From Elizabethkingia sp. YR214 (lineage in GTDB: Bacteria; Bacteroidota; Bacteroidia; Flavobacteriales; Weeksellaceae): DNA of 64,000 bases. A program made the position numbers and the translations under genes. Positions 3,049-42,900 of this stretch are shown here, piece after piece. Location of the stretch: assembly GCF_003058195.1 (NCBI RefSeq), contig NZ_QBUH01000006.1:186001-250000 (forward strand), read 5' to 3'. The notes under the pieces are model-generated. The model searched no databases and was not told where the DNA came from. It was given only the letters and a program-made list of their open reading frames with translations. How positions within the stretch are numbered: the stretch's first letter is position 1; the number at the start of each line of letters is the position of its first letter.

Positions 3049-3652
3049 AAGACAATACTTCTCTTCCTACTGCATCTATCCAATCCTGAAACAATTGATT
3101 TTCTATCTTCAGAACTTCTCCGGCATAATTCTCCCAATTCTCGTGGAAACGTTCTAACTGTTGGATCATTTCTTCAAGATGACCTTCTTCTTCCAGAATA
3201 ATAGACTTCACCATTACTCTGGACTTTGCTTTATCCAATGCTTCCTGATAAACAGGATAAAGCTCATCTGCTCTCACTTCTATAGCATAGGTTACAAACA
3301 GATAAGAGGCATACCGAAGTTCTTTTCCATCTAACCGAAAAGTATCTTTCAGAAAACGACTGGCCCGCATATCCAATCTGTGGAGATATTGTCGGGTATA
3401 TCCCTGCGCCAGCATTTCATCTACTTTATAATTAATACAGTAGTCCGGTATCAGTTTTAGTATTTGCTTTTTTAGATAATAAGCATGACGGTGCTCTTCT
3501 GCAGCATGCTTTAGCTGGATAAGATCTACCGTCACCGGATCTTCACAGGCAGATATTTTCCGGGCACCCGCATTTTCCATAAACGAAAGTGTATTCAGCC
3601 ATTTCGCATGTATCTCATTATCCCGAATAATCGCTTCTATTATTTTTTGCAT
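3023..3652 (-). CDS. Ferritin-like diiron protein, first gene of the biotin operon
   Basis: Not a recognised bio gene. The 209-aa sequence is all-helical in character and carries a two-fold ferritin-like ligand pattern: E26 then E53-x-x-H56, and E125 (or E130) then E155-x-x-H158, with 27- and 30-residue spacings typical of a four-helix carboxylate-bridged diiron site. No signal peptide or membrane segment is present. It is the promoter-proximal gene, overlaps bioF by 26 bp and is therefore expected to act with it. No bioC, bioH, bioG or bioW is visible nearby. An inferred role is oxidative production or release of the pimeloyl precursor, or protection of the oxygen-sensitive BioB. The fold call is firm, the function is inference. 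Confidence 0.7.
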   Translation of the reverse strand: MQKIIEAIIRDNEIHAKWLNTLSFMENAGARKISACEDPVTVDLIQLKHAAEEHRHAYYLKKQILKLIPDYCINYKVDEMLAQGYTRQYLHRLDMRASRFLKDTFRLDGKELRYASYLFVTYAIEVRADELYPVYQEALDKAKSRVMVKSIILEEEGHLEEMIQQLERFHENWENYAGEVLKIENQLFQDWIDAVGREVLSYESAGALA

Positions 3653-5241: not shown

Positions 5242-6507
5242 CTATTTTGTGGCTTTAAGCCCATAAGTGTAGACATTGTACGGCAGTAAACGCTGTGCAA
5301 AAAATTTCGAAATAAAGCTTCCCAACAGTAAAGGAAAAAATAACAAATAACCATTGGGCACCAAACTGCAAACCAGAAAAAGAGCTGTTAGCGGAGCATA
5401 AATGGAAGCTGATAAAGTTGCTGCAGCACCAACCAATACAAAATTAATAAGAATAAGATCTGTATGAAAATAAGTATTACACGCCAAAGCAAACAGTAAT
5501 CCCAACAATGCACCTGAAACAATACTCGGGGCAAATACACCACCGTCGCCACCAGCACCAAGAGTTAAAGAAGATGCCACGGGTTTCAGGAAAACCAATG
5601 CCAGAAGTAAAAGCATAGATACTTCTTTATGATTTATCGCCTGGTTCAGGATTCCTTTAAGTCCGTGATAACTGTCTCCATATAATACTGGCAAAAAGAA
5701 AATCATACTCCCTACGATAAGGGCGCCAAGATTTACACGAAGAAAATTATTATCTATTTTTGAGAAAAAGTCTTTGATATGGATCACCAGAATGGTAAAA
5801 TAAACTGACAAAATCCCACCCAGCAAACTGAGTATTACAAAAAATGGTACTGCCGACCATTTCCAGCCACTAATACTAATGTCCAATAAAGGTTTGCTAT
5901 CGAACAAAAAGATAAATAGTCCTGCAATAAGAGCAGAAGCTGTACAGCTAATCGCCAGTGACTTATTGACTCTTCGGGCTATAACTTCCATAGCAAATAA
6001 CCAACCTGCCAGCGGGCTTCCGAATAAAACAGCAACTCCGGCAGTTACTCCGGCACAGATCAGTTCGCGTTTATACATTTTTGCAGAAAAACCTTGTTCG
6101 TAAGCCATATTACCAACAGTAGCTGTTGCAACCACAGTGGAAACCTCAACACCTGTAGAGCCTCCGAAAATTACCGTAAGAAAACCATTCAGATAATGAG
6201 AAGGTATTTTGAAAAAAGGTAAATGATCTTTTCGTTGATCCAAAGTTTTATAGATTTCTGTGATCCCTTTATTCTTTCTGTTCTGAAAAAAATATTTTCT
6301 AAGGAAATAAATTGTCGTAATCCCCACAGTTGGCAGTACAATAAATAATAAAGAATTATGATCTTTCGCCAGAGAGAAAAACTTTTCTTCCAGATATTCG
6401 GTAATATGTTTTAGAGAGAAAGCCAGCAATGCACATATTAGTCCCACCAGCAATGATAATAATACAAGTTTGAAGTAATGTCGGATAATGACCTTTTTTC
6501 TTTCCAT
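5242..6507 (-). CDS. ClC-type chloride channel/transporter, no CBS domains
   Basis: Inner-membrane ClC protein of 421 aa with about ten to twelve hydrophobic segments. The gating region reads GGSTGVEVST (about residues 115-124), with a glutamate in the position of the external gate, and GAGGDGGVFAPSIVSG matches the conserved selectivity-filter loop. The canonical GREGP proline is replaced, so its transport mode (channel versus H+/Cl- exchanger, or fluoride) cannot be assigned. There is no C-terminal CBS pair, unlike the second ClC gene at 23493-25298. It converges with the MocR gene (37-bp gap) and stands alone upstream of a 196-bp intergenic region. Confidence 0.9.
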   Translation of the reverse strand: MERKKVIIRHYFKLVLLSLLVGLICALLAFSLKHITEYLEEKFFSLAKDHNSLLFIVLPTVGITTIYFLRKYFFQNRKNKGITEIYKTLDQRKDHLPFFKIPSHYLNGFLTVIFGGSTGVEVSTVVATATVGNMAYEQGFSAKMYKRELICAGVTAGVAVLFGSPLAGWLFAMEVIARRVNKSLAISCTASALIAGLFIFLFDSKPLLDISISGWKWSAVPFFVILSLLGGILSVYFTILVIHIKDFFSKIDNNFLRVNLGALIVGSMIFFLPVLYGDSYHGLKGILNQAINHKEVSMLLLLALVFLKPVASSLTLGAGGDGGVFAPSIVSGALLGLLFALACNTYFHTDLILINFVLVGAAATLSASIYAPLTALFLVCSLVPNGYLLFFPLLLGSFISKFFAQRLLPYNVYTYGLKATK

Positions 6508-6703
6508 GTCAAAGATTTATGCATTGAAAAATGCTCTGCAAAATTACAACAATCATGTTTTTTTTCAAAATACACAGAAATAATATATATACTCAGTAAA
6601 AGCATTGTTATTCAGAAAAATAACTGTATGAAAAATTATGAATTTTAAGTAAATTGCAAGTACAGTCAGGCATAGCTTGCTGCATTTAACAATTTACAAG
6701 TAA

Positions 6704-7477
6704 ATGACCGAAATACACCATCTAAACTGCGTACGAATTGTTTCTCCACTTAATGATAATGTATGTGGACATTGCTTACTGATACGAGAAAATGACAAAC
6801 TTATCCTTATAGATACAGGTATTGGGCTTCTGGATACACAGCAACCTGATGAAAGAATAGGTCAACAGCTTATTGATATGGTAGGCTATCGCTTCAGTGA
6901 AGACCTGACTGCTATACGACAAATTCAAAACCTTGCCTTTGACCCTCAGCAGGTCACTGACTGCATTATATCTCACATGGATAACGATCATATTGGCGGT
7001 ATTGCCGATTTCCCTCAGGCAACTGTACATATAGGAGCTGAGGAATTGAACAGTTTTAATTCCGGAAACCCCAGGTACATAAAACTGCCTATGGAGCATC
7101 GCCCCATAGTTAAAACATATGCTAAAACAACAGATGAGTGGTACGGTTTTGAAGCGAGAAAAGTTGAAACAGATACTGAGGCTGAAATATATCTTATTCC
7201 TCTGTTTGGTCATACCGAAGGCCATTGTGGAATTGCCATAAAGGCAAATAACCAATGGGTATTTTATGTTGCAGATGCTTATTATCTGAAAGCAGAGCTA
7301 TATGACAGCAATCATCCTGTAAATGAGTTGGCCAGAATACGTGCCGAAAACAATGATTTGCGTATAGAAAGCATCAGTAAAATACGAAAACTAACCAATG
7401 AACATCCTGAAATTGAAGTATTCGGTTATCATGACATAGAAGAATTCAGGCGTTATAATCCTGAAACAGTATACTGA
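6704..7477 (+). CDS. Metallo-beta-lactamase-fold hydrolase
   Basis: MBL-fold protein of 257 aa. The metal-binding motif is seen in SHMDNDHIGG (about residues 91-100), followed by a HTEGHCGI histidine and an aspartate in YVADAYY. These are the usual ligands of zinc hydrolases related to lactonases and glyoxalase II. There is no signal peptide, so it is cytoplasmic. The substrate is unknown; quorum-signal or other lactones are possible. It opens a compact rightward cluster of small enzymes ending at 10346. The 196-bp region in front contains an 8-bp inverted repeat (GTAAATTG at 6649-6656, CAATTTAC at 6690-6697) of unknown meaning. Confidence 0.87.
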   Translation: MTEIHHLNCVRIVSPLNDNVCGHCLLIRENDKLILIDTGIGLLDTQQPDERIGQQLIDMVGYRFSEDLTAIRQIQNLAFDPQQVTDCIISHMDNDHIGGIADFPQATVHIGAEELNSFNSGNPRYIKLPMEHRPIVKTYAKTTDEWYGFEARKVETDTEAEIYLIPLFGHTEGHCGIAIKANNQWVFYVADAYYLKAELYDSNHPVNELARIRAENNDLRIESISKIRKLTNEHPEIEVFGYHDIEEFRRYNPETVY

Positions 7478-15361: not shown

Positions 15362-15369
15362 TATATTTG
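15362..15369 (+). promoter_or_regulatory. -7 box of the cobalamin riboswitch transcript
   Basis: TATATTTG matches TAnnTTTG exactly and ends six bases before the first conserved riboswitch nucleotides, so transcription would start right at the aptamer. A second exact copy at 15196-15203 lies 160 bp upstream with no recognisable gene behind it. Confidence 0.65.
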
Positions 15370-15375
15370 CCATCA

Positions 15376-15530
15376 GTTTTTGGTGCATCTTAAAAAGTGC
15401 TTAAAAGGGAATCAGGTGTAAATCCTGAACAGACCCGCTGCTGTAAACTTCGCAAAACAAATTAGCAATATGTCACTGTTACCACAGTAATGGGAAGGCG
15501 CTAAAGAGAAGTAAGTCAGAAGACCTGCCA
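15376..15530 (+). ncRNA. Cobalamin (B12) riboswitch
   Basis: The conserved elements of the cobalamin aptamer appear in order: GGTGC (15382-15386), AAAAGGGAA (15403-15411), the CCCGCTGCTGTAA core (15434-15446) and the B12 box AAGTCAGAAGACCTGCC (15513-15529). It lies in the 5' leader of the BtuB-like receptor, about 135 bp before its ATG. A hairpin TCCC...GGGA (15588-15607) could be part of the expression platform. High intracellular cobalamin is expected to turn the operon off, as is known for this class. Confidence 0.93.
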
Positions 15531-15664
15531 GAAATATATGTTTGATGCTTTCGTGGAATAAAGCTATATCGACCTGAATAAACTCTCCCGGATTTCTCTC
15601 TGGGATAGTCATGTACTGATATTCGCTGCAAAGGCTTAAACATTTTTGATATAATGTAAGGCCA

Positions 15665-36314: not shown

Positions 36315-37337
36315 TTATTGATTTTCTTCCTGAGATTCAGGCTCACTGTAATGACTAATTGCTTTTCGTAATTTTTGTTCAATACGCTTCTTTAATCTTA
36401 ATGGTCTGTATAGCACCAGATTTTCTCCAAAACCTAATAATAAACGTTCTAACTCATAATTCAGTTGAACTTTAATACTGAAAACCGTTCCATCTTCTTT
36501 GTCCTCAATAATCTGCTGACTGTGATGTAAAGGTTTCGTTTTTACGTAAGGAGCATTGCTTTTATCCACAAAGAAAGTAACATTTCGAGGGTGCATACTC
36601 TCCGAAACAGTAACTCCTACAACATCTTTAAAAAATTCATCCCCATTCAGGTCTTTGTCAATATAGACAGACTGCTCATCTATTTCAATATTTTCCATTC
36701 TGTCCAGTGCCAAATTATACATAGCCCCTTTATAAAGGCATATCAAAAACCAACGATTATTAAATTCTTTTAGTAATTGTGGATGAACGGTATAGGTACT
36801 AAAGTCTCTTGCTGTAAAGCTTTTATAGAGAATCTTCAGTACCTTTTTATTCAATATAGCCTGATATAATACATCGATATATTCAAGACCTTTTAACTGC
36901 TCGTTTTTGTCCAGATGAATAATGGACTTCTGTTGAACAGCATTTACTGAATCTTCAAGTTTCTGCAACACACCATTCATTTCCCGAAACATCGAAAAGT
37001 CTTTAAACTGTTTCAGGATCTGTATCGCATTGTTCATGGCTTTCAGATCGCTTTCATTAACAGAAATATGATGAATGCTGTACTCTGGATCGCTATAACG
37101 ATAATACTTACGTTCGTATACTTCTATCGGAGCTTCATAACCAAATTTCTCACTGCGCATGTTCTGCAAATCCAGCTGTATCGTTCGCTTGCTTACATAC
37201 GATTCCTTCCCCTCATACTCAAACAGGGCTTCTGAACATTCATCTATCAGATCTTCCAGTGTATACTTGCGGTATTTATTTTTCAGACACTTATCCAGTG
37301 TTTTATACCGGATCAATGCATTTTTGTTAGAAGACAT
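36315..37337 (-). CDS. WYL-domain transcriptional regulator, probable controller of the RNA-repair island
   Basis: The N-terminal about 80 residues form a winged-helix DNA-binding domain (YTLEDLIDECSEAL and SYVSKRTIQLDLQNMR). The WYL-type sensor follows at about residues 150-260 (LNKKVLKILYKSF, VHPQLLKEFNNRWFLICLY), then a C-terminal wing-like extension. WYL proteins bind nucleic acids or nucleotides and regulate DNA- and RNA-stress systems. It lies behind the HopJ-like gene, whose promoter carries the same palindrome found in front of rtcB and the Y-like RNA. It is therefore the best candidate for an RtcR-equivalent regulator, an inference from position. Confidence 0.88.
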   Translation of the reverse strand: MSSNKNALIRYKTLDKCLKNKYRKYTLEDLIDECSEALFEYEGKESYVSKRTIQLDLQNMRSEKFGYEAPIEVYERKYYRYSDPEYSIHHISVNESDLKAMNNAIQILKQFKDFSMFREMNGVLQKLEDSVNAVQQKSIIHLDKNEQLKGLEYIDVLYQAILNKKVLKILYKSFTARDFSTYTVHPQLLKEFNNRWFLICLYKGAMYNLALDRMENIEIDEQSVYIDKDLNGDEFFKDVVGVTVSESMHPRNVTFFVDKSNAPYVKTKPLHHSQQIIEDKEDGTVFSIKVQLNYELERLLLGFGENLVLYRPLRLKKRIEQKLRKAISHYSEPESQEENQ

Positions 37338-37430: not shown

Positions 37431-37763
37431 TTATTTCGCTTTTAGTGCCTCACCTTCAAAGACAATACCGCCCCATCCGAATTCTATAAAGTTTCTGATA
37501 TTTTGGTGGTCTGTACCTTCAGGATTTTTCAATACATCTTCTCTGTAGAATGTACCAAAAAGATTCAGTGTATTCTCTTTAGACAGGTTGTTTACTTTAG
37601 CAAAGCTGAATACTTTACATGAGCCATTATTCTGTCCAGCTTCATTTACCGTATTACCATTTCTGAATTCAGTTGGTGTGAAATCATAATTGCTATCGAT
37701 GTAAGCAATAACATCGTTAAATTCAATAGACTCAGAAGATTGCTCTAATTGTTCTAGTATCAT
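37431..37763 (-). CDS. HopJ-type small protein
   Basis: A 110-aa protein matching the family named after HopJ (VIAYIDSNYDFTPTEFRNGNTVNEAGQNNGSCKVFSFAKVNN). Despite the name, homologues are widespread in non-pathogenic bacteria and no type III secretion machinery is expected here, so a housekeeping or stress role is more likely. It lies 93 bp before the WYL gene in the same direction and shares its promoter region with the divergent rtcB. Function unknown. Confidence 0.8.
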   Translation of the reverse strand: MILEQLEQSSESIEFNDVIAYIDSNYDFTPTEFRNGNTVNEAGQNNGSCKVFSFAKVNNLSKENTLNLFGTFYREDVLKNPEGTDHQNIRNFIEFGWGGIVFEGEALKAK

Positions 37764-37800: not shown

Positions 37801-40139
<2,339 letters not shown>

Positions 40140-40166: not shown

Positions 40167-40203
40167 CTACGCAAAAACATTGCGCACATACTTAATTACT
40201 TTG
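40167..40203 (+). promoter_or_regulatory. Second copy of the rtcB-type operator/promoter, before the Y-like RNA
   Basis: CGCAA-AAACA-TTGCG (40170-40184) is followed after 11 bp by TTACTTTG (40196-40203), the same spacing as in front of rtcB. The flanks are also nearly identical (CTACGCAA at the left, GCGCAC then AATTACTTTGCAT at the right). Transcription should start a few bases before the tRNA-like GGGACTG at 40215. The duplication marks both units as one regulon. Confidence 0.8.
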
Positions 40204-40214
40204 CATGAGTAAAT

Positions 40215-40340
40215 GGGACTGTAGCTCAGAGGATAGAGCAACGTAAAAACACTTTACCAGATTTTAACCTGTACACAGGTGTGATGATAAAGTTACTTCG
40301 CTTGGGGCCGTTGGTCGCCGGTTCGAATCCGGCCAGTCTC
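40215..40340 (+). ncRNA. tRNA-mimicking Y-like RNA (YrlA type)
   Basis: A tRNA body is split by an insert. Acceptor GGGACTG (40215-40221) pairs with CAGTCTC (40334-40340; one G-U). D arm: GCTC/GAGC (40224-40227, 40236-40239). T arm: GCCGG-TTCGAAT-CCGGC (40317-40333). The ACG (40241-40243)/CGT (40309-40311) pairs and the TGGTC variable region (40312-40316) match a tRNA(Arg). In place of the anticodon loop lie 65 nt with two nested stems, ACCTG/CAGGT (40267-40280) and ACTTTA/TAAAGT (40251-40256 with 40288-40293). No anticodon can be read. Bacterial Y RNAs of the YrlA class carry tRNA-like modules and lie next to Ro60/Rsr genes, as here. Confidence 0.85.
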
Positions 40341-40354
40341 TCAATAACTGGAGT

Positions 40355-40412
40355 GGTGTGAGATATCAAGGTTACTTCGTTCAGAAAAAAAACACCTTTA
40401 TTAGTTTTAACC
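40355..40412 (+). ncRNA. Second, permuted copy of the Y-like stem
   Basis: Two blocks of the first RNA's insert recur here in swapped order. GGTGTG...TTACTTCG (40355-40382) resembles 40278-40303, and a 25-base block (40388-40412) matches 40245-40269 at 18 of 25 positions. The stem AAGGT/ACCTT (40368-40372 with 40394-40398) equals AAAGT/ACTTT of the first copy with one compensatory pair change (T-A to C-G). It may be a second Ro-binding stem in the same transcript, in the leader of the TROVE gene. Confidence 0.6.
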
Positions 40413-40441
40413 ACTTCATTAACTAAAAAAACAAAATAGTG

Positions 40442-41821
40442 ATGTCAAAATTAAATTCAAAAAAAACAGGATTTGGTTCCGGTATTATTGCCGGAAAAGA
40501 AACAAATGCAGCAGGAATATATTCCGATTATGAATTATTGAGAAGAGTAACACTTGCTAATATTCTTTTTGAATCCGACTATTATCAGCCGGCAGATGAA
40601 ATTATGGCCCAGATAGAAAACTTGTGTCATAAAGTAACCGGGCAACAGATTATCGATCTGGCATTGGAATGCCGTTTTGAACAAAAACTGAGACATACAC
40701 CATTATGGTTATTAATTCTGGCTAATGAAATTCATCATGTGAATATAAAAGATGCTGTTGCCAAAATAGCCAACAGACCTGATATGACGATAGATCTGCT
40801 TCAGATGCTGAAAGCAAGAAACGGATCTTATAAAATGTCTAAATCTGTAAAAAAAGGTATTGCGAAAGCTTTTGATCAATATGACGAATACCAGATTGCC
40901 AAATACCGAAAAAGCAATATGGAAGTATCATTGGTAGATGTGATAAACCTTGTTCACCCTAAGCCTACAGTAGAAAACGAAAATGCATTAAAAGCGTTGG
41001 TAGAAGACACACTGAAACCCGCTAATACATGGGAAGTAGCCCTATCTCAGGGAGCTGATAAAAAAGGAACTTTCGAAAGAATGCTTACTGAAAAAAGTTT
41101 GGGATCCCTGGCGATTCTTAGAAATCTTAGAAATATGACGGAAGCAGGACTTTCCAGAAAGACAATGCGGGAAGCGATTGCTCAGGTAAAAAGTAACTGG
41201 CTGACTCCTTTAAATTTTCTGGCAGCACAAAGAAATGCACCGGAATATACAGCTTATATAGACGATGCTATGAAAAACTGTTTTTCTCAGGAAAAAATAG
41301 CAGGGACTACCATCTTGGCTATAGATGTATCCGGGAGTATGGGACAAGTAACCTCATCCAATTCTAAGTTTTCCAGAATGGATCTGGCTTTTGCTATGGC
41401 AGCTGTTGGTTCCTATATCTTTGAAGATCTTATTCTGGTATTCACCGCTGGTAGCGATTCTTCCCGAAAAGGAAAACATCTGATATGGGATAATGCTGCA
41501 GGGCTGGGAATATTCAGACATTATAAAAAGATATATTCTGAATTAGGTGGTGGTGGTATTTTCACTTACCAGCTATGTGAATGGCTAAAGGAGAAAGGTT
41601 ATGCCAAAGATGCCGACAGACTTGTCGTAATCTCAGACAGCCAGGATATTGACGCACAATCCGGATTAAAAAGAAAACCGGATACTACACCCTATAAGAC
41701 TTCTTATATTATTGATATCTCTACCCATACCCATGGAATAAAAACCGGGAACTGGACAGCAGAAATCAACGGATGGAGCGATCGTGTTTTCCATTATATC
41801 AAGGCTTTAGAAAGCAATTAA
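40442..41821 (+). CDS. rsr: TROVE-domain protein, Ro60/Rsr orthologue
   Basis: A 459-aa protein with an N-terminal TROVE HEAT-like ring (about residues 15-300; GFGSGIIAGKETNAAGIYSDYELLRRVTL and LAILRNLRNMTEAGL) and a C-terminal von Willebrand A domain with the metal site DVSGSMGQ and VVISDSQD. Ro60 proteins hold misfolded RNA in the ring and bind Y RNA on the outside; bacterial Rsr can tether Y RNA to PNPase. The reading frame includes a GTG one codon earlier, but the ATG at 40442 is preferred. It lies 102 bp after the Y-like RNA and 20 bp before the second RlaP gene. Confidence 0.93.
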   Translation: MSKLNSKKTGFGSGIIAGKETNAAGIYSDYELLRRVTLANILFESDYYQPADEIMAQIENLCHKVTGQQIIDLALECRFEQKLRHTPLWLLILANEIHHVNIKDAVAKIANRPDMTIDLLQMLKARNGSYKMSKSVKKGIAKAFDQYDEYQIAKYRKSNMEVSLVDVINLVHPKPTVENENALKALVEDTLKPANTWEVALSQGADKKGTFERMLTEKSLGSLAILRNLRNMTEAGLSRKTMREAIAQVKSNWLTPLNFLAAQRNAPEYTAYIDDAMKNCFSQEKIAGTTILAIDVSGSMGQVTSSNSKFSRMDLAFAMAAVGSYIFEDLILVFTAGSDSSRKGKHLIWDNAAGLGIFRHYKKIYSELGGGGIFTYQLCEWLKEKGYAKDADRLVVISDSQDIDAQSGLKRKPDTTPYKTSYIIDISTHTHGIKTGNWTAEINGWSDRVFHYIKALESN

Positions 41822-41841: not shown

Positions 41842-42900
41842 ATGACTATAGAAGAACTAAAAGCAAATAAACTTATCCTTTTTGAAGTCATATCCGGAAG
41901 CCGTGCTTTTGGACTGGCAACAGAAATTTCGGATACCGATATACGTGGTATTTATTATATGCCAAAAGATTCCTTTTTTGGCCTTGATTATACGCCGCAG
42001 GTATCCAACGAAACCAACGACACTGTCTATTACGAAATAGGTCGGTTTATGGAACTTTTGCAAAAAAACAACCCGAATATTTTGGAAATTCTGGCAAGCC
42101 CGGACGACTGTATTCTATACAAACATCCACTTATGGATCTGCTAAGTTCAAAAGAATTTCTTTCGAAACAATGTAAAGATACTTTTGCCGGTTATGCCAT
42201 ATCTCAGATAAAAAAGGCTAAGGGGTTGAATAAAAAAATATTGAATCCTGTAGAAAAAGAAAGAAAATCTGTCCTTGACTTTTGCTACGTCCTTAAAGAT
42301 CACCTTTCTGTTCCTTTGAAAAAATGGTTAACGGATCAGGGAAAAGTTCAGGATAAATGTGGTCTGGCCAGCATAGACAATACCCGCGGAATGTATGCTA
42401 TATTCTATGATGAAACCGGAACATTAGGTTATAAAGGGATTATACAGACTGAAGAAGCTAATCAGGTTTCGGTATCATCCACACCAAAAGAAGAAAAATC
42501 TATAGCTTATCTTTTCTGTAATCTGGATGCTTATTCTGTTTACTGTAAAGAGTACCGTGAATACTGGAAGTGGATTTCTGAACGCAGCGAGGATCGTTAT
42601 AACGTGAACCGGAAGCATGGACAAAACTATGACAGTAAAAATATGATGCATACTATACGCTTATTACAGTCCTGTGAACAAATCTTCGGAACAGGTTCTT
42701 TACAGGTACGTGTGGATAACCGTGATGAGTTGTTGGATATTAAATCAGGTAAGTGGCCGTATGATATGATCATGCAAAAAGCAGAAGACCTTATTTTGGC
42801 TATTGAGGATTGCTATACCACTTCTACCCTTCCGGAATATCCGGATGTAAAGAAAACAGCAGATCTATTGGTAAAAATAAGAAAGCACCTATACAAATAA
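41842..42900 (+). CDS. RlaP-type RNA-repair nucleotidyltransferase (second copy)
   Basis: A 352-aa pol-beta nucleotidyltransferase. The active site is GSRAFGL...SDTDIRG (about residues 18-36), and the long C-terminal part contains helices (FAGYAISQIKKAKG, KNMMHTIRLLQSCEQIF) typical of the longer RlaP subfamily. It is about 100 residues longer than the first RlaP, so the two probably act on different RNA ends or substrates. It is the last gene of the Y-RNA/TROVE unit, closed by a strong terminator 22 bp downstream. Confidence 0.87.
   Translation: MTIEELKANKLILFEVISGSRAFGLATEISDTDIRGIYYMPKDSFFGLDYTPQVSNETNDTVYYEIGRFMELLQKNNPNILEILASPDDCILYKHPLMDLLSSKEFLSKQCKDTFAGYAISQIKKAKGLNKKILNPVEKERKSVLDFCYVLKDHLSVPLKKWLTDQGKVQDKCGLASIDNTRGMYAIFYDETGTLGYKGIIQTEEANQVSVSSTPKEEKSIAYLFCNLDAYSVYCKEYREYWKWISERSEDRYNVNRKHGQNYDSKNMMHTIRLLQSCEQIFGTGSLQVRVDNRDELLDIKSGKWPYDMIMQKAEDLILAIEDCYTTSTLPEYPDVKKTADLLVKIRKHLYK

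Follow-up and report, generated by a model that had tools for sequence, protein, structure and literature searches.

The stretch of Elizabethkingia sp. YR214 DNA analysed here, 64,000 nucleotides long and hereafter called the window, carries just upstream of a Ro60 gene a predicted RNA, termed tRNA-Y RNA (positions 40215-40341, forward strand), in which a complete tRNA body, its 7-bp acceptor stem free at the end, holds a permuted and capped Y helix where a tRNA has its anticodon arm. Comparison of 14 loci confirmed that this feature is real and conserved beyond chance. With moderate confidence, we propose that it is a YrlA-type Y RNA with an open, tRNA-order topology, which would tether the Ro60 protein to tRNA repair or decay.

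A tRNA body without an anticodon loop

A scan of the whole window with Rfam cmscan matched the tRNA model RF00005 at 40215-40341 with 44.8 bits (gathering score 29; E 2.7e-6), and in this alignment 65 nt stand at 11 anticodon-arm positions of the model. The RNA is thus tRNA-like by score and by its full acceptor, D and T arms, and differs from a tRNA in having the Y helix at the place of the anticodon loop; a decoding loop is absent from all 14 loci. The acceptor stem has 7 bp (40215-40221 with 40334-40340), the D arm 4 bp (40224-40239) and the T arm 5 bp (40317-40333), and of the anticodon stem a remnant is left, namely, ACG at 40241-40243 with its partner CGT at 40309-40311, which is invariant in the 14 loci. 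The insert contains Y strand A (ACTTTA ... TTTTAACCTG, 40251-40271) and Y strand B (CAGGTGTGATGATAAAGTTACTTCG, 40276-40300). A preliminary description, made from the letters of the window, had claimed a Y-like RNA with these arms, an open acceptor end, the ACG/CGT remnant and a 65-nt insert instead of the anticodon loop, all of which the RF00005 match and the 14-locus comparison bear out.

The YrlA model, RF02553, gave 19.5 bits on the same region, below its gathering score of 69; this threshold is a weak test, since the closed relatives from Bacteroidota described below also fail it (best 45.8 bits), and the model was rejected as a detector because it is too weak for this phylum. In single-sequence folding, the whole RNA did weakly better than its shuffles (z -1.97), and the excised insert region folded alone showed no gain over them (z +0.48).

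After the acceptor strand follow T and CAA, so that CCA is not encoded. The preliminary description had noted this absence, which is ordinary among the tRNAs of this genome: a 3' CCA is encoded in two (Gly-gcc and Glu-ttc) of 29 distinct tRNA sequences from 30 loci, a looser count of nine taking in CCA formed by acceptor letters. An open acceptor on a non-coding RNA is also found in tmRNA, which uses a tRNA-like end, keeps part of the tRNA only and carries an mRNA-like tag frame. The tRNA-Y RNA differs from it in its complete D and T arms and in its insert, which is a protein-type hairpin.

The insert and the neighbouring plain hairpin

Directly 3' of the tRNA-Y RNA lies a plain Y hairpin (40350-40417, forward strand), overlooked in the preliminary description, which is seen in the consensus fold of the 14 loci, with both-side changes in 4 of 16 pairs, and matches our model R2 with 85.8 bits. 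Its strands follow each other in the order B (GGTGTGA..GTTACTTCG) then A (TTTTAACC), and both are the conserved strands of the insert. Inside the tRNA body the order is the reverse, A, loop, B, so that the insert can be read as the plain hairpin in circular permutation. Using a loose motif, we found strand B in permuted order in 14/14 bodies of the window type, and the downstream hairpin to be plain in 11 loci, both in one and permuted in two (L039 and L041); the inner helix of the downstream hairpin is kept in the alignment fold of all 14, these two included.

Neighbouring genes and a common operator

The Ro60/TROVE protein (40442-41821, forward strand, 459 aa) starts about 100 nt 3' of the tRNA-Y RNA and was identified by PF05731 (39.8 bits, cut-off 23) and by its match to the solved TROVE protein PDB 9l5y (E 3.6e-16 over residues 31-457). 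Two RlaP nucleotidyltransferase genes flank the RNA and Ro60 on the same strand, at 39393-40139 (PF10127, 236.4 bits, cut-off 23) and, RlaP-like, at 41842-42900 (86.5 bits, same cut-off). Further upstream is rtcB, encoding an RNA ligase (PF01139, 123.1 bits), whose longest frame spans 37836-39263 on the forward strand; ATG 37881 is the more likely start because 37836 falls inside an operator. Among the nine proteins scanned at the locus one regulator was found, a WYL-WCX protein (36315-37337, reverse strand; PF13280 44.7 bits, PF25583 39.2 bits).

The operator is an inverted repeat, TACGCAA-N5-TTGCGCA, located before the RNA gene (40168-40186) and, as an exact copy, before rtcB (37825-37840), both on the forward strand. 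In both promoters the common operator ACGCAAAAACATTGCG is followed by the element TTACTTTGCAT (40196-40206 before the RNA), which, by the Bacteroidota consensus, we take to be a predicted promoter element of this type. These are the only two exact operator sites in the window (37825 and about 40168). As a pattern, the operator has four forward matches and one reverse match in the 4.05-Mb genome, against none in a reversed control, and at two other genomic places with the pattern the promoter element is absent; it recurs in 13/14 short-Ro60 loci and in 8/10 long-Ro60 stretches. The surroundings claimed in the preliminary description were therefore recovered as well: an RNA-repair-type promoter, given the operator and element common to rtcB (37825) and the RNA (about 40169), the Ro60 gene that follows, and the two flanking RlaP genes. 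By sequence comparison, the RNA is linked to the adjacent Ro60 gene and has its operator and promoter element in common with rtcB; the WYL-WCX protein is the candidate reader of this operator.

A comparable arrangement is the rsr-yrlBA-rtcBA locus of Salmonella, described as being under RtcR control (PMC7790460), where a tRNA-like Y RNA likewise shares one controlled locus with RtcB and Ro60 (Rsr). The Elizabethkingia locus differs in its WYL regulator gene, its two RlaP genes and its open Y RNA.

No terminator is discernible before the gene in the consensus folds, so that the structure, which lies between promoter and Ro60 start, could be a mere cis-acting 5' leader of the Ro60 mRNA, where binding of Ro60 or of a tRNA enzyme would control the operon, with no separate RNA being made. 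We consider this improbable, given that related RNAs sit 3' of the gene in long-Ro60 loci, in the viral-contig locus L188 and in phage crAss001.

Between the WYL regulator and rtcB, the region also encodes a protein of the Pfam HopJ family (37431-37763, 166.2 bits); short genes that look homologous recur beside rtcB in Chryseobacterium. A 47-residue reading frame with no Pfam match lies between rtcB and the first RlaP gene (39260-39403). A Cobalamin riboswitch (119.4 bits) is found elsewhere in the window (15364-15546).

Conservation and covariation in Weeksellaceae

Relatives of the short Ro60 occur in 16 named loci, 13 from Weeksellaceae and three from elsewhere (L042, L043 and L045; Chitinophagales, Saprospiraceae and Lewinella). 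The same RNA was found just 5' of the short Ro60 gene in all 14 of the window and the 13 Weeksellaceae loci. In their alignment 98.9% of the cells pair and 10 of 34 pairs show changes on both sides, and neither value was reached in any of 500 shuffles; sliding the partner columns lowered pairing to 29.5-44.2%. Covariation is strongest in the acceptor stem (5/7 pairs), the distal Y hairpin (3/6) and the T arm (2/5). All 14 loci have the inner insert stem, ACTTTA/TAAAGT, which rests on conservation, because five of its six pairs never vary; covariation is thus neutral on this stem and on the ACG/CGT remnant, which are nearly or wholly invariant. Loss of the insert stem in related genomes, which had been named beforehand as an outcome that would speak against the feature, did not occur.

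A covariance model built from the 14 tRNA-Y RNAs (R1) scored at least 134 bits in 7 of 197 Weeksellaceae genomes, which are exactly the genomes with close relatives of the Ro60 of the window (79-100% identity). The nearest named relatives of the protein are in Elizabethkingia occulta (95%) and E. miricola (93%). Distant Ro60 proteins (31-38% identity) occur in 37/197 genomes, one of which, G164, has both a close and a distant form.

These data bear on two readings of the RNA as a tRNA gene, both of which were rejected on conservation, covariation and linkage to Ro60. First, an intron-bearing gene, from which the insert would be spliced and the tRNA-Arg sealed by RtcB, would fit a tRNA body with an RNA ligase gene nearby, but it is very improbable: neither side of the insert holds an anticodon in any of the 14 loci, and the insert is conserved, linked to Ro60 and also present as a hairpin standing alone next door. 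Second, a dead tRNA gene with a chance insertion agrees with the result of ARAGORN, which called zero tRNAs in the window, 40215-40341 included, yet the compensatory changes across 14 loci and the linkage to Ro60 across 197 genomes leave it a negligible chance.

Open and closed topologies across Ro60 loci

YrlA (RF02553) resembles the tRNA-Y RNA in lying beside Ro60 and in having a D arm, a T arm and an acceptor-like helix joined to a Y helix. The strands of its open Y stem enclose, in this order, the T arm, the closed acceptor and the D arm, and YrlA has been described as a circular permutation of tRNA (PDB 6CU1; PMC11472068). In the tRNA-Y RNA, by comparison, an open acceptor goes with a D arm that precedes the T arm and with a capped, permuted Y helix (14/14); accordingly, the 5' and 3' ends that pair as the Y stem in YrlA form the acceptor stem here, the Y helix being internal in all 14 loci. 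In the part of the literature searched, we found no description of an open-order Y RNA; one may have appeared elsewhere.

For classification, a locus was called open when the acceptor strands pair across the insert, as in tRNA order, and closed when they pair across a short loop between the T and D arms, as in YrlA order; the classifier requires perfect arms, and random partners reach 6/7 pairs in 2.2% of cases. Topology was judged by acceptor pairing because R1 bridges adjacent closed units and also matches ordinary tRNAs (73-nt tRNAs score about 55 bits, and all 197 genomes match at E 1e-3). R1 was therefore rejected as a topology test, the bridging being seen in L043 (63.5 bits).

The results were as follows. 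First, short-Ro60 loci of Weeksellaceae were open in 14/14 cases, with none closed. Second, the short-Ro60 relatives outside this family were closed, L043 by the classifier, and L042 (CAATATC/GATGTTG) and L045 (CGGGGCC/GGCCCCG), which the classifier missed, by eye. Third, long-Ro60 loci of Weeksellaceae were closed in 8/10, and their sole open call, L137, bridges two closed units; other false open calls came from tRNA clusters (L163, L166 and L267), as did false extra closed calls in L130, L132 and, once, L163. Fourth, class-wide TROVE loci gave 7/17 closed, none open and ten neither by the classifier, and RF02553 matched at E <= 0.5 in 13 of the 17 sources scanned with it. In closed units, the acceptor loop frequently reads TTCG or GCAA.

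On viral contigs, the presence of a Ro60 relative was confirmed for 158 stretches; the 80 that were kept still include near-copies such as L178/L179, L176/L177, L189/L222, L210/L211 and L235/L236. Closed RNAs were found in 43/80; the 45 first flagged include L178 and L179, where the call arises from two neighbouring open RNAs each. Six of the 80 are open (L178, L179, L181, L188, L190 and L228), or five when L178 and L179 are taken as the near-copies they are. Among the open viral bodies, both of L179, the first of L188, and those of L228 and L181 were scored as permuted with the loose motif; L190 and the second of L188 were scored as plain.

Two loci show CCA-like ends. In L181, the acceptor strand of the open Ro60-linked RNA (2266-2420) is followed by ACCA, an encoded CCA. 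In L045, the 3' acceptor strand of the closed YrlA-type RNA 5' of Ro60 (about 3240-3374) runs into GCCA ahead of the loop, which looks like a CCA end hidden within the closing loop.

Origin of the open form

The preliminary description had taken the RNA to descend directly from a tRNA-Arg gene, a claim that found no support: the tRNA-Arg genes seen (acg twice, tct and cct, from 30 of 45 tRNA places of the genome) have no ACGGC/GCCGT anticodon stem, and a crude body score separates tRNA-Arg(tct) from tRNA-Lys by 19 to 18. In a Ro60 tree the open form sits among lineages with closed YrlA-type RNAs, which makes re-opening of a permuted YrlA likelier than such a descent. This tree, obtained by a quick method, has 68 rows, 61 of them labelled (two closed labels by eye), covers 51 of the 80 viral loci and merges L178 and L179 into one row. 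The open state requires most simply six changes, at least three of them forced by well-supported branches, against 12 on average with shuffled labels. The seven rows in the clade of the window, every one of them open, form a group with the three closed rows of short Ro60, so that the simplest reading is that the open form in this clade is a re-opened closed YrlA; the direction of the switch would follow from this quick tree. Most likely, it would have arisen in a tandem array whose unit ends shifted, and in L043 an array of closed units does hold an open frame at a junction (R1 63.5 bits). With both topologies present in one bacterial family, and even in a single genome (G164), the transition from one to the other is open to direct study.

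The position of L178/L179 in the tree is unsure because their Ro60 stretch has stops. The match is about 390 nt longer than its residues need, with 12 stops in the frame of L179, as if interrupted by an insertion.

The same build beside two other protein families

The open, tRNA-bodied build was also found beside p584 and p746, two proteins without detected similarity to Ro60 (profile probabilities of 0.3 and 0.4%, respectively); compared with each other, their profiles gave a probability of 43.5%. For p584, nothing above threshold was found in Pfam, NCBIfam, PADLOC or PHROGs, nor any match at E <= 0.001 among PDB sequences or, with the predicted model, in Foldseek, where a second look (VIA) concerned mainly residues 373-506. 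A search for p584 outside Flavobacteriales returned 1 of 149 class genomes, that one a Weeksellaceae, and no relatives of p746 were found in viral contigs.

The GTTCCT strands of p584 loci follow a rule: within tRNA bodies 30 are permuted (A, loop, B) and none plain, and outside them 120 are plain (B, loop, A) and two permuted, with 15 unpaired. These deduplicated counts cover 47 stretches of related loci and are hence not independent events; before deduplication, 51 stretches gave 33 and 0 inside, 131 and 2 outside, and 17 unpaired. The distinct p584 loci number 26 instead of 30, as L108, L111, L112 and L113 duplicate L054, L065, L064 and L074. All five p746 bodies are in permuted order, two of them on 5-bp stems only. 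In six p584 genomes plain hairpins are retained although no tRNA body was detected, a further point against reading the insert as an intron.

From this rule, permuted inside and plain outside, the insert behaves like an adaptor that permutation fits to the anticodon position, with the tRNA body as the common part. We tentatively suggest, at somewhat short of even chances, a system of adaptors on a tRNA chassis that serves three or more protein families, of which two show no detectable similarity to Ro60, each with its own hairpin permuted into the anticodon arm of a tRNA that is otherwise complete and has a free acceptor end. If so, cells and phages would plug different proteins into the tRNA-processing machinery by a common handle, of which closed YrlA and open tRNA-Y RNA would be interchangeable topologies, and the open form might be CCA-tailed, or even charged and carried by EF-Tu. 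As the build also accompanies an orphan protein family and a RING-family protein, tethering by tRNA mimicry seems not to be peculiar to Ro60.

Some p584-type loci deserve separate mention. In the Flavobacterium-family genomes of L163 and L166, two tandem tRNA-bodied RNAs (about 6547-6942) precede the p584 gene, and a distant RtcB (29-30% identity) is encoded in the same stretch. L165 has a decayed relative (6429-6554) that breaks off inside the T arm; its stretch has no p584 match, and rtcB and both RlaP genes remain. Beside p746, the RNA of L110 is weakly matched by the tmRNA model (30.4 bits, cut-off 47).

Proposed function

Based on its sequence relationships, we envisage the tethering role as follows. 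The operator would be freed, probably by the WYL regulator upon RNA damage, and RtcB, RlaP, the tRNA-Y RNA, the plain Y hairpin and Ro60 would then be made together. The tRNA-Y RNA would be expressed as a stable RNA, trimmed and tailed by RNase P, tRNase Z and the CCA enzyme as for a tRNA. The insert hairpin probably binds the Ro60 protein, which would dock on the Y helix, while the tRNA body with its genuine acceptor end would recruit tRNA-handling enzymes (RlaP, RtcB, PNPase or others), thereby tethering Ro60 to the repair or decay of tRNAs; on the plain hairpin, Ro60 would be held without a tether. This role is proposed on the precedent of Deinococcus, where a Y RNA is described to tie Rsr to PNPase (PMC7790460, PMC8394870). 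Because the open form has a real acceptor end, processing, CCA-tailing or charging of a Y RNA like a tRNA now becomes testable.

Phage carriers

Relatives of p584 were found in 24 viral-contig stretches. Open RNAs lie 5' of the gene in L247, L255 and L256, by classifier and R3, and in L258, L259 and L265, by R3 and inspection. Among annotated phages, the cyanophages S-CRM01 (L271, 3977-5818) and S-CBWM1 (L272, 3980-5836) have p584 relatives, annotated as hypothetical, inside their tRNA clusters.

Such carriers, and the p584 relatives within phage tRNA clusters, fit a different role, in which a tRNA body lacking a cleavable anticodon would act as a decoy that soaks up or inhibits tRNA-cutting enzymes, Ro60 merely stabilising it. 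Absence of the anticodon loop in 14/14 loci agrees with this, as does a study of Salmonella that reportedly saw no fragments of YrlA and put forward a role as competitive inhibitor for it (PMC7790460). We nevertheless deem it unlikely, as it leaves unexplained both the matched, permuted hairpins of each protein and why closed forms serve equally.

Bacteroides phage crAss001 offers a ready test bed, being a cultured phage with a published infection transcriptome, described as strand-specific, in which its TROVE gene is an early gene (PMC8375218). Downstream of this gene we found an open tRNA-Y RNA (NC_049977.1, 96454-96596, reverse strand; L277, 3124-3266) that matches RF00005 with 46.6 bits and is unannotated in the record. 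Among the four named phage Ro60 stretches, crAss001 is thus open, Olaya and Kikimora are closed, and Mvi-JY20 is neither.
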